Shown: piece after piece, positions 46,093-47,744 of the stretch
Numbering within the stretch: position 1 is the first letter of the stretch
Layout: each line of letters opens with the position of its first letter
Assembly (NCBI GenBank): GCA_024402115.1
Contig: JAKSJQ010000001.1
Location: 110,483 to 174,482 of the forward strand
Length of the DNA stretch: 64,000 nt
Source of the DNA: Bacteroidales bacterium
GTDB lineage: Bacteria; Bacteroidota; Bacteroidia; Bacteroidales; UBA932
Reading direction: 5' to 3'
Translations under genes and position numbers: made by a program
Notes under the pieces: generated by a model
Seen by the model: only the letters and a program-made list of their open reading frames with translations
Database searches by the model: none
What the model was told of the DNA's origin: nothing

Positions 46093-46179
46093 TTGTGTGA
46101 CAGTGATACGTCGTTTCTCCGAATCGTTTACTTTTGTATTCGGACATTCGTTCTGATAGGGTGGTCCAGATGGTGCGAT

Positions 46180-47100
46180 ATGGAGAAGAAGGATTTTACG
46201 AGGCAGGAGAATTTGTGCCAAGCCCGGTTTCTGGAAGCGGGAAGCTGTTTTCACGTGTGCTCACAGGAGAATCATCCGGTGATATTTCATGACGAGAAGG
46301 AATTCAAGGCGGTGATGAACATCATTGCTTTTACTGGGTTTCTCTTCAGGGACATTCACATATTCACCTTTGAAGTCATGAGTAATCACCTCCACTTTGC
46401 ATTGAGTGGAGAGAAAGACAGGATCAGCTGCTTTCTGCATGTTCTTGTGACAAAACTTGCTGCCGATCCTGTGCTGAGTGGATCGCGTGCGTCTGTCAGG
46501 AAACTCAGTTTCAAGATCATTCCCATAGGCAGTCTTGACAATCTGCGGAATGTCATCTCGTACGTCAACAGAAATGGATTTGTCGTCAACCCCGCTCATT
46601 CTCCGTTTTCATATCCATGGGGTGCAAACAGGTACTTTTTCAATCCAGAGGCTAAGATGCGTCTTCTGGCGTGCGGGCACAAGGCGACATGTTCCCTCAA
46701 GCGTGAACTGTTCCATAGTGACAGGCTTGCCAAAGAAGGCGCTGTCGTCATCTTGGACGGTTACGTATCACCTGCCTGTCTCTGCCGTATTGAAGATGCG
46801 GAGTCATTTTTTCGTTCCTGTTGGCATTATTTCCAAAGTGTATCCAAGAACGTGGAAGCCTCAAAGGATATTGCAAAGGAAATAGGCGAGAGTATCTTCT
46901 ATAACGATGACGAATTGTTCTCGGTTGTTGCTGCGATGTGTGCAAAAGAATATGGGCGTCCGTCACCTACGACATTGTCAAGGGAAGAGAAGCTTGAGGT
47001 TGCGAAAAAGCTTCACTATGACTATAACGCCACCAACAAACAGGTGTCCAGAATCCTGAAGATAGGAGTAGACACCGTGAATCTGATTTTTCCGGGTTAA
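46180..47100 (+). CDS. REP-associated tyrosine transposase (Y1 HUH)
   Basis: The protein (306 aa from ATG 46180) has the Y1-transposase fold: HUH histidines His70 and His72 in MSNHLHFAL and the likely catalytic Tyr128 in YVNRNGF. The C-terminal 40 residues (LSREEKLEVAKKLHYDYNATNKQVSRIL) look like a helix-turn-helix. The gene sits between two matching 82-bp REP pairs, the arrangement of REP-associated tyrosine transposases, which cut and copy such palindromes as single-stranded DNA. A TACTTTTG -7 box at 46129-46136 drives it. An earlier in-frame ATG at 46093 directly abuts the left repeat and precedes the -7 box, so it is rejected. Confidence 0.85.
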   Translation: MEKKDFTRQENLCQARFLEAGSCFHVCSQENHPVIFHDEKEFKAVMNIIAFTGFLFRDIHIFTFEVMSNHLHFALSGEKDRISCFLHVLVTKLAADPVLSGSRASVRKLSFKIIPIGSLDNLRNVISYVNRNGFVVNPAHSPFSYPWGANRYFFNPEAKMRLLACGHKATCSLKRELFHSDRLAKEGAVVILDGYVSPACLCRIEDAESFFRSCWHYFQSVSKNVEASKDIAKEIGESIFYNDDELFSVVAAMCAKEYGRPSPTTLSREEKLEVAKKLHYDYNATNKQVSRILKIGVDTVNLIFPG

Positions 47101-47150
47101 TCTGTTTGAAAGCCCCCTTTTTATACATTTCATTGCAAAGGTGTCTTAGG

Positions 47151-47232
47151 AAATGTGCGTTTGGACCGAATTTACACATATTACGTAGGGCGGATGCTTC
47201 GAAATGTGTGTTTTGACCGGATTTACACATTT
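47151..47232. repeat. REP-pair element, right copy (82 bp)
   Basis: Direct repeat of 46011-46092, same length, with scattered substitutions, mostly in loops. Units are 47151-47180 and 47202-47232; the right edge of unit 1 reads CACATA rather than CACATT. Confidence 0.8.
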
Positions 47233-47263
47233 AGGGAAGGCCCCTACGCGCTTGACGTTTGCC

Positions 47264-47333
47264 AGGCCATCACCCGAAATGTCCACATGGAACTTTTTCA
47301 GTGCAATCCATCACCCCAAATGTCCAGATGACC
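47264..47333. repeat. Two imperfect 27-nt direct repeats
   Basis: Both copies share CCATCACCC(G/C)(A/A)AAATGTCCA(C/G)ATG-type sequence, with a 43-bp period, at about 47266-47290 and 47309-47333, just before the tRNA-Leu terminator. Confidence 0.55.
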
Positions 47334-47341
47334 GAAGAAAC

Positions 47342-47376
47342 AAAAACCAGCCTTGTAGATATCTACAAAACTGGTC
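47342..47376 (-). terminator. Terminator of the intron-bearing tRNA-Leu
   Basis: Read on the minus strand, a long stem (ACCAG outside, TTGTAGATATCTACAA inside, with a 2-nt internal loop) ends in CTGGTTTTTG. It begins 7 nt after the tRNA 3' end and has a T-run. Confidence 0.8.
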
Positions 47377-47382
47377 TTAACG

Positions 47383-47703
47383 TGCCCCGGACGAGACTCG
47401 AACTCGTACAGCCTTGCGGGCCAAGGGATTTTCTTGCTACTCTCGCTTTTGCACGAGCCATCTCAGGGAGATGTTGTAGTCTGGACTATTTCATCACCAT
47501 GCTGTCGTTTAGGTGTCTTCCGTATAGTCTCTACGCCATTTACGCATGTCTGCGATTTAGTAAGCCATCGCCAACTCCCGTATCGCTACGGGATAGGTTT
47601 CTGTTTGTTAGGAAGATTCTACGTCTGGGGTTTCCCTCAGCGCACTCAAATGATTCCTGGGAATCCTATAAGTCCCTCGTGTCTACCATTCCACCACCAG
47701 GGC
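47383..47703 (-). tRNA. tRNA-Leu (UAA), split by a group I intron
   Basis: Exons on the minus strand are 47703-47670 (34 nt, from GCCCTGG to GGGACTT) and 47432-47383 (50 nt, from AAAATCCC to CCGGGGCA). Joined, they give an 84-nt class II tRNA: acceptor GCCCTGG/CCGGGGC, D arm with GGTAG, anticodon stem AGGGA/TCCCT around loop CTTAAAA with anticodon TAA, a long variable arm GCC-CGCAA-GGC and T arm ACGAG-TTCGAGT-CTCGT. CCA is not encoded. The break falls between U34 and A35, the position used by the cyanobacterial and plastid tRNA-Leu intron. A -7 box TATCTTTG lies 13 nt upstream. Confidence 0.93.
47433..47669 (-). ncRNA. Group I self-splicing intron (237 nt, no ORF)
   Basis: The intron begins ATAGGATTCCC and ends GTAGCAAG with terminal G. 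P1: exon GGGACUU pairs with GGAUUCCC, leaving a U-G wobble at the 5' splice site. P2: hairpin with UGCG/CGUA and CUG-GGG/CCC-CAG. P3: UCUUCC (47611-47616) with GGAAGA (47516-47521). P5: CCCGUA/UACGGG capped by a GCGA tetraloop (47577-47592). P7: GACUAU (47524-47529) with AUAGUC (47484-47489). P8: CACC (47512-47515) with GGUG (47495-47498). P9: CAUCUC/GAGAUG (47459-47473). R-like (GUAGAGACUAUACGG) and S-like (AAAUAGUCC) core sequences are present. The P3-P7-P8 order forms the pseudoknot diagnostic of group I introns. P4 and P6 are less certain. Confidence 0.9.
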
Positions 47704-47715
47704 GTGATGTGGATG

Positions 47716-47744
47716 CAAAGATAAGATAAAAAATTTTACCTTTG
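47716..47744. promoter_or_regulatory. Divergent -7 boxes: tRNA-Leu (minus) and M13 peptidase (plus)
   Basis: TATCTTTG on the minus strand at 47716-47723 precedes the tRNA 5' end (47703). TACCTTTG on the plus strand at 47737-47744 precedes the peptidase ATG (47787). Confidence 0.65.

Follow-up and report, generated by a model that had tools for sequence, protein, structure and literature searches.

A group I intron of a phage-shared subfamily in the tRNA-Leu(UAA) gene of a Bacteroidales genome

A 237-nt insert interrupts the tRNA-Leu(UAA) gene of a Bacteroidales genome between U34 and A35. Our best explanation, held at a probability of roughly 0.8, is that the insert is a predicted self-splicing group I intron of a subfamily shared with phages, likely spread by an HNH homing endonuclease that is missing from this copy. 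The subfamily is missed by the standard group I model and connects bacterial and phage tRNA genes. The gene lies at 47383–47703 of the window, the whole 64,000-nucleotide stretch of DNA that was analysed, and has exons of 34 and 50 nt. The gene and its flanks are arranged as follows.

47716–47723, minus strand: TATCTTTG, a -7-box-like element 12 nt upstream of the tRNA gene
47670–47703, minus strand: exon 1 of tRNA-Leu(UAA), positions 1–34, ending in GGGACUU (ARAGORN)
47433–47669, minus strand: group I intron of 237 nt, unusual-P4 subfamily (ARAGORN, covariation, covariance model)
47383–47432, minus strand: exon 2 of tRNA-Leu(UAA), from A35 to the discriminator base, CCA not encoded (ARAGORN)
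47343–47378, minus strand: hairpin resembling a terminator, with a T-rich tail after it, downstream of the tRNA gene

ARAGORN in its intron mode recovers the split gene as c[47382,47703] Leu(taa) i(35,237), and it calls the joined exons, with the predicted junction GGGACUU-AAAAUCCC, a tRNA-Leu(taa). Both the two exons that join into this tRNA and the 237-nt insert at 34/35 had been proposed from the letters alone in the original prediction, and ARAGORN bears them out. The default ARAGORN scan and the Rfam gathering search miss the gene and report just a tRNA-Gly elsewhere in the window. The default scan is blind to a gene of this kind because its anticodon holds the intron.

The upstream element TATCTTTG fits what we take to be the Bacteroidetes -7 box, TAnnTTTG. 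Ten other bacterial loci were read for such a box, and it stands upstream in all eight that were readable by script, L227 being cut short and L226 unmatched. Box and hairpin agree with the original prediction that the locus has its own -7 box and terminator. The Bacteroidetes-type promoter would drive transcription of the split gene, P1 would hold the 5′ splice site with its U34.G pair, and the P3-P7-P8 core would bind guanosine and join the exons to restore the UAA anticodon. Before splicing, the RNA lacks an intact anticodon, and the reading of UUA would therefore depend on splicing if there is no other copy.

Whether there is another copy bears on a rival explanation, which sees in the split gene a dead relic and has another copy supply the tRNA. 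The focal genome is known here from the window alone, so there is room for a second copy. Against this, the exons, the splice sites and the core helices are intact, the promoter box and the terminator are kept, and UUA codons are used in the window genes (3 and 4 in two genes, none in three others). The nearest record is a MAG of Candidatus Cryptobacteroides caccocaballi, whose neighbouring M13 peptidase is 98% identical to the window's. This second MAG (L001/L116) also has the split gene, with 6 differences over 322 bases; every one of them is intronic, and the exons are unchanged. A second intact tRNA-Leu(UAA), which had been named beforehand as evidence against the prediction, is absent from the 35 tRNA matches of the sister MAG, itself a draft, where the Leu GAG, CAG and CAA tRNA genes are present. 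We consider the relic improbable.

The insert in tRNA-Leu(UAA) is a real group I intron. Its helices, with their changes among relatives, are listed here from the 5′ splice site onward.

47648–47669, minus strand: P1 loop, 22 nt with a small hairpin inside; site of the HNH gene in 4/11 bacterial copies
47642–47647, minus strand: internal guide sequence GAGUGC, whose GAGU pairs with exon ACUU (P1), with G.U34 at the splice site
47611–47616, minus strand: P3 5′ strand UCUUCC, partner GGAAGA at 47516–47521; two-sided changes in 5/6 pairs
47602–47603, minus strand: P4 5′ strand, just 2 pairs, partner at 47566–47567; second pair A-U in 13, C-G in 2 and G-C in 1
47576–47593, minus strand: P5 extension capped by a GCGA (GNRA) loop; two-sided changes in 7/7 pairs
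47525–47529, minus strand: P7 5′ strand GACUA, partner UAGUC at 47484–47488; invariant in 16 rows
47516–47521, minus strand: P3 3′ strand GGAAGA
47512–47515, minus strand: P8 5′ strand CACC, partner GGUG at 47495–47498; two-sided changes in 2/4 pairs
47484–47488, minus strand: P7 3′ strand UAGUC

P1 forms four pairs between exon A31-C32-U33-U34 and guide GAGU, and the intron also has P9 and a terminal G. Every element named in the original prediction (P1 with its U-G, P3, P7, P8, P9, a GNRA-capped P5 and the terminal G) was recovered here. Across the related loci, the U.G pair at the 5′ splice site is found in 19/19 window-type loci, with a P1 of at least 4 pairs in 18 and of 3 pairs in L139. 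The intron ends in G in 19 of 20 loci (18 window-type or Lak Leu introns and 2 canonical ones) and in A in L139.

Covariation was measured on an alignment of 16 relatives, 6 bacterial and 10 from viral collections. Standard pairs fill 96.6% of 698 cells over 44 pairs, compared with 77.4% in shuffles and 31–40% for slid partners, a control biased in favour of the tested structure as this was drawn from the window row. Two-sided changes occur in 29/44 pairs (18.1 in shuffles) and in 148 cells (44.2 in shuffles). On another measure, the number of further pair types, 34 of the 500 shuffles did as well. Between the window and L121, P3 switches from UCUUCC/GGAAGA to CUCCUC/GGGGAG and P8 from CACC/GGUG to GACC/GGUC. 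P7 is invariant in the 16 rows and uninformative for covariation there; L221 has a variant set of P7 pairs, as read by eye. In the P4-P6 domain, the P5 extension and P6a covary, and P4 has two pairs of which one covaries, so the domain departs from the canonical form.

A covariance model was then trained solely on the 10 introns from the viral collections, without the bacterial rows. With it, the window scores 157.1 bits (E 1.9e-29), and all six further bacterial copies lie at 141–159 bits. L220 and L221, outside its training set, score 152 and 140 bits, and canonical introns 38–73 bits. In 20 unrelated Bacteroidales loci it has no match at E 0.01.

The standard Rfam model RF00028 (gathering cut-off 50 bits), which the original prediction had proposed as its check, fails to hit the window even at an E of 10. 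Its best score on the window-type relatives is 15.7 bits (L117). It passes the cut-off in 7/9 canonical tRNA introns, one of them on a viral contig (L147), versus 0/9 window-type loci, with L183 and the L145 tRNA intron as the two canonical ones missed. The L145 contig does carry a second group I intron (L145:3725-3949, 95.8 bits by RF00028) besides its canonical tRNA-Leu(UAA) intron with an HNH gene; this match sits elsewhere on the contig and was not counted for the tRNA intron. RF00028 likely misses the window subfamily because its P4 is so short. The covariation and the purpose-built model overrule this failure. The window intron is predicted to be self-splicing.

We searched order, genus, phylum and family samples, which share some genomes, for further copies. 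The strict core pattern hits 1/393 genomes of the order sample, the one at its centre, and 10/400 of the genus sample, of which 6 were kept. The other four (L118, L119, L124, L125) were dropped as chance matches with no tRNA there, and the pattern matches L138 and L128 were also judged chance and dropped. The core pattern is too strict and misses some window-type variants: G432, G498 and G531 were found by model in the same genus sample, so at least 9/400 genus genomes hold the window type. The window-type bacterial species number 10 in all samples, and every one belongs to the same bacterial family.

The family model extends the picture to weaker relatives. It has one strong match in the phylum sample (395 genomes), again the central genome, and 22 others at 34–57 bits. 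In the family sample it matches 64/348 genomes, 7 at 155–165 bits and 57 at 48–78 bits. The 19 weak phylum loci that were read by ARAGORN or by eye are tRNA-Leu(UAA), CAU and Arg(UCU) genes, identities that partly contradict the ARAGORN labels and in which the CAU tRNA was taken as initiator Met. The 18 weak family matches read by ARAGORN are 12 Leu(taa), 2 Ser, 2 Tyr and 2 without a call.

These canonical introns resemble the window type in their tRNA-Leu(UAA) site and, as read by eye, in the guide sequence, which is related, as well as in P2 and the 3′ end, and some of them hold HNH genes. They differ in having a full-length P4 (by eye; for example UUCGGGG/CCCGAG in L176) and in the RF00028 scores given above. 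Thus, one lineage uses one insertion site for two intron types. Group I introns are frequent in the tRNA genes of Bacteroidota, whereas a review, in the portion available to us, places those of bacteria mostly in cyanobacteria with a few in alpha- and beta-proteobacteria, and most bacterial and plastid tRNA introns at 37/38 (PMC4033280). Our literature searches, which reached few subscription papers, turned up no printed account of such introns in suppressor tRNAs or in the tRNA genes of Bacteroidota. When plasmids were searched with the window gene, the sole matches were to an exon, in two Vibrio records.

Outside its own bacterial family, the relatives of the window subfamily are phage tRNA genes. 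The window-type intron is present in the crAss-like phage cr115_1 (NC_055898) and in Lak-B1, and BLAST matches equal in identity occur in Lak-B3, B6 and B9. It is also present in the IMG/VR records L127, L129, L135, L136, L137, L139, L142, L143, L144, L220 and L221; the introns of L140 and L141 are identical to that of Lak-B1 by eye and were not tallied separately. A diverged form, at 80–87 bits, is found in the tRNA-Leu of Lak-B1, B2 and C1.

The phage identity of most of these records has further backing. L139 has a terminase, the L142 record a tail sheath, L129 a virion protein and code 15, L135 a phage RNA ligase, L144 a helicase and L143 code 15 alone. The L127 record has a phage RNA ligase and helicases, with a cellular-type transporter gene near its intron. 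The phage status of L136, L137, L220 and L221 follows IMG/VR, together with tRNA arrays in L136 and L137.

Three different phage tRNAs are split. One is Leu(UAA), another is Lys(UUU), seen in L136 and L137, and the third, the amber-suppressor CUA, is split in cr115_1, Lak-B1, L139, L143, L144 and also L220, the last by eye and contrary to its ARAGORN label. When spliced, they are called Leu(taa), Lys(ttt) or cta by ARAGORN, with cta labelled Pyl; L131 gets no tRNA call because its D-loop insert was left in. The Leu and Lys tRNAs are split after U34 and pair guide GAGU with exon ACUU. The CUA tRNAs are split after U35 and pair GGAG, or GGAC in L139, with CUCU. A shift of the target by one base is thus accompanied by a corresponding change in the guide. 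As a separate observation, the tRNA-Leu(UAA) genes of Lak-C1 and Lak-B2 (L131:2412-2719, L132:2404-2712) carry in their D loops a further group I-like intron, hence two introns per gene.

The cyanobacterial and plastid tRNA-Leu(UAA) introns occupy what we take to be the same 34/35 site. The cyanobacterial ones are of a similar size class and have a U.G at the splice site. The original prediction set the window intron against them, and its reading of a group I intron splitting the same gene holds, but the comparison was too narrow: with weaker-scoring relatives in 57/348 family genomes, the intron is no isolated cyanobacterial-like arrival. A lateral arrival from that lineage without phages being involved would account for the shared site and for general core motifs, both as commonly described. 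It is hard to reconcile with a window core that lacks the canonical P4, with the RF00028 result on canonical versus window-type loci, or with the family-model scores, 136–175 bits for phage window-type introns (mostly training-set members) and 33–74 bits for canonical introns. By the usual description of cyanobacterial introns, the window subfamily is also unlike them in being shared with phages and in having an HNH gene in some P1 loops. We regard such an arrival as very improbable.

Trees were made for the exchange between phages and bacteria. A tree including the canonical introns was set aside, as long tRNA-Arg branches were pulled into the window group. The two trees retained have 16 and 22 rows without the tRNA-Arg introns, L131 and L221 being missing from one. 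In both, the bacterial copies fall into two groups placed among phage copies, and they unite into one in 0/200 bootstrap trees; deep branch support is weak in both. The window group joins L135 and L137 with a bootstrap of 82–83. The AU test leaves a single bacterial origin unrejected (p 0.205 and 0.273). From these topologies, an exchange between phages and hosts in at least two events, in either direction, can be inferred.

The competing account is vertical descent within Bacteroidales tRNA-Leu(UAA) from a canonical same-site intron, from which phages would have acquired theirs. It draws on the canonical introns found at this site within the family (57 weaker family matches, with 12 of 18 read as Leu(taa)), on the guide sequence, P2 and 3′ end that both types share by eye, and on the AU test. 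However, the bacterial copies never come together in the bootstrap trees, the window type is confined to one bacterial family (1/393 in the order by the strict pattern, 1/395 in the phylum by the model), and phages hold it in three different tRNAs. Vertical descent is therefore possible but doubtful, and we favour the phage-shared subfamily with a mobile history.

Mobility is suggested by the HNH genes. An HNH gene lies in the P1 loop of 4/11 bacterial window-type loci, being identified by translation in L120 and L122 and by loop length and by eye in L225 and L226. The phage L127 copy has the same layout in tRNA-Leu(UAA), and the L122 and L127 proteins are 60% identical over 156 aa. Pfam HNH_3 is over its cut-off in both bacterial HNH copies tested, and a PDB search with the HNH protein gave a best E of 0.19. 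The end of the HNH gene reads through the guide sequence and P2. Among the matches listed (1458 overall), 51/120 HNH homologues have [KR]SA within their last 30 residues, the motif that the guide sequence encodes.

The window intron has no HNH endonuclease gene. A pair of loci is instructive: L225 and L227 have the same intron with and without the HNH gene, their P1 loops measuring 512 and 42 nt, and the sequence downstream is identical at 235/235 bases. They appear to be a natural gain or loss of the endonuclease. Intron-free arms of tRNA-Leu(UAA) were found by an exact pattern in 13/41 relatives of G757, and the intron-free allele of L205 adjoins the same upstream gene as L120–L123. These findings make homing of the intron by the HNH endonuclease likely, and the endonuclease would have been lost from the window copy.

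Some features beside these genes are recorded here. A free-standing HNH gene of 177 aa lies directly beside the split tRNA in the second MAG, G001 (L116:742-1275, minus strand), with 48% identity to the family, and it has no counterpart at that spot in the window. The same MAG has two group I-like matches of 38.1 and 23.1 bits, under the RF00028 cut-off (L276, G001:C14:19562-20366). These adjoin a gene for an SPFH-like protein with an HNH-like frame, both named by eye, and may mark a split protein gene. In the window, short direct repeats lie at 47150–47330 beside the tRNA terminator, in two pairs (30 nt, 90%; 23 nt, 91%). The nearby ORF at 46093–47100, without a Pfam match, is by motif presumably akin to a REP-type transposase.

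Earlier work on phage introns touches this subfamily in part. In the text accessible to us, Devoto 2019 leaves the Lak tRNA introns unclassified and 'enigmatic', calls them the first in phage tRNAs to its authors' knowledge, and reports for the baboon Lak phages one intron, in tRNA-Tyr (PMC6784885). The Lak introns found here are likewise in tRNAs, namely the tRNA-Leu of Lak-B1, B2 and C1 and the CUA tRNA of Lak-B1; they are of group I type, whereas the available text of that report leaves the class unnamed (PMC6784885). Introns in the tRNAs of jumbo phages are also noted in the seen portion of a 2026 paper (PMC13037316). By contrast with these tRNA introns, the phage group I introns known by 2014 were all in protein genes, according to the available part of Hausner 2014 (PMC3984707). 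Group I introns also occur in the crAss-like and Jug phages of Bacteroidota, along with endonucleases of HNH or other types, but in protein genes, and the accessible sections of those papers leave introns in tRNA genes unmentioned (PMC7886860, PMC12363816).

The split CUA tRNAs bear on recoding. If spliced, the phage CUA tRNA would let the phage read UAG as an amino acid. In cr115_1, ten chosen late-side genes have 67 in-frame TAG in 6324 codons, with none in two of the ten, and four genes from the RNA polymerase and virion block carry 155; nine early-side and three replication genes have 0. The GenBank record of cr115_1 has three tRNAs and one tmRNA, and the suppressor tRNA is absent. ARAGORN in intron mode recovers the split CUA gene, labelled Ser cga, and no further CUA tRNA was found there. 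No intact CUA tRNA is among the 30 tRNA matches read, of 36, in Lak-B1, and a narrow pattern for an uninterrupted CUA tRNA hits 0/5 phage records. Annotation thus loses the affected tRNAs, the window gene by the default scan and the cr115_1 suppressor in GenBank.

The Lak tRNAs include a CTA tRNA, the genomes not being specified in the available text (Devoto 2019, PMC6784885), and some recoded crAss-like phages have no detectable suppressor tRNA according to the portion of Yutin 2021 at hand (PMC7886860). An intron-split suppressor gives a concrete answer to this missing-suppressor question, for cr115_1 at least. A wider idea is tentative and we think it unlikely as a whole: one lineage would cycle between Bacteroidota chromosomes and phages through anticodons, splicing of the suppressor tRNA would switch on the reading of UAG in late genes, and 'suppressor-less' recoding phages would hide an intron-split one. 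Splicing may time recoding in phages under such a scheme.

Two other RNAs were seen near these phage tRNA genes. In cr115_1, a Hatchet ribozyme (L126:11311-11434, 103.5 bits) lies ~420 bases upstream of tRNA-Leu(taa). A permuted tmRNA match (L135:3067-3353, 68.2 bits) lies within the phage tRNA array of L135.
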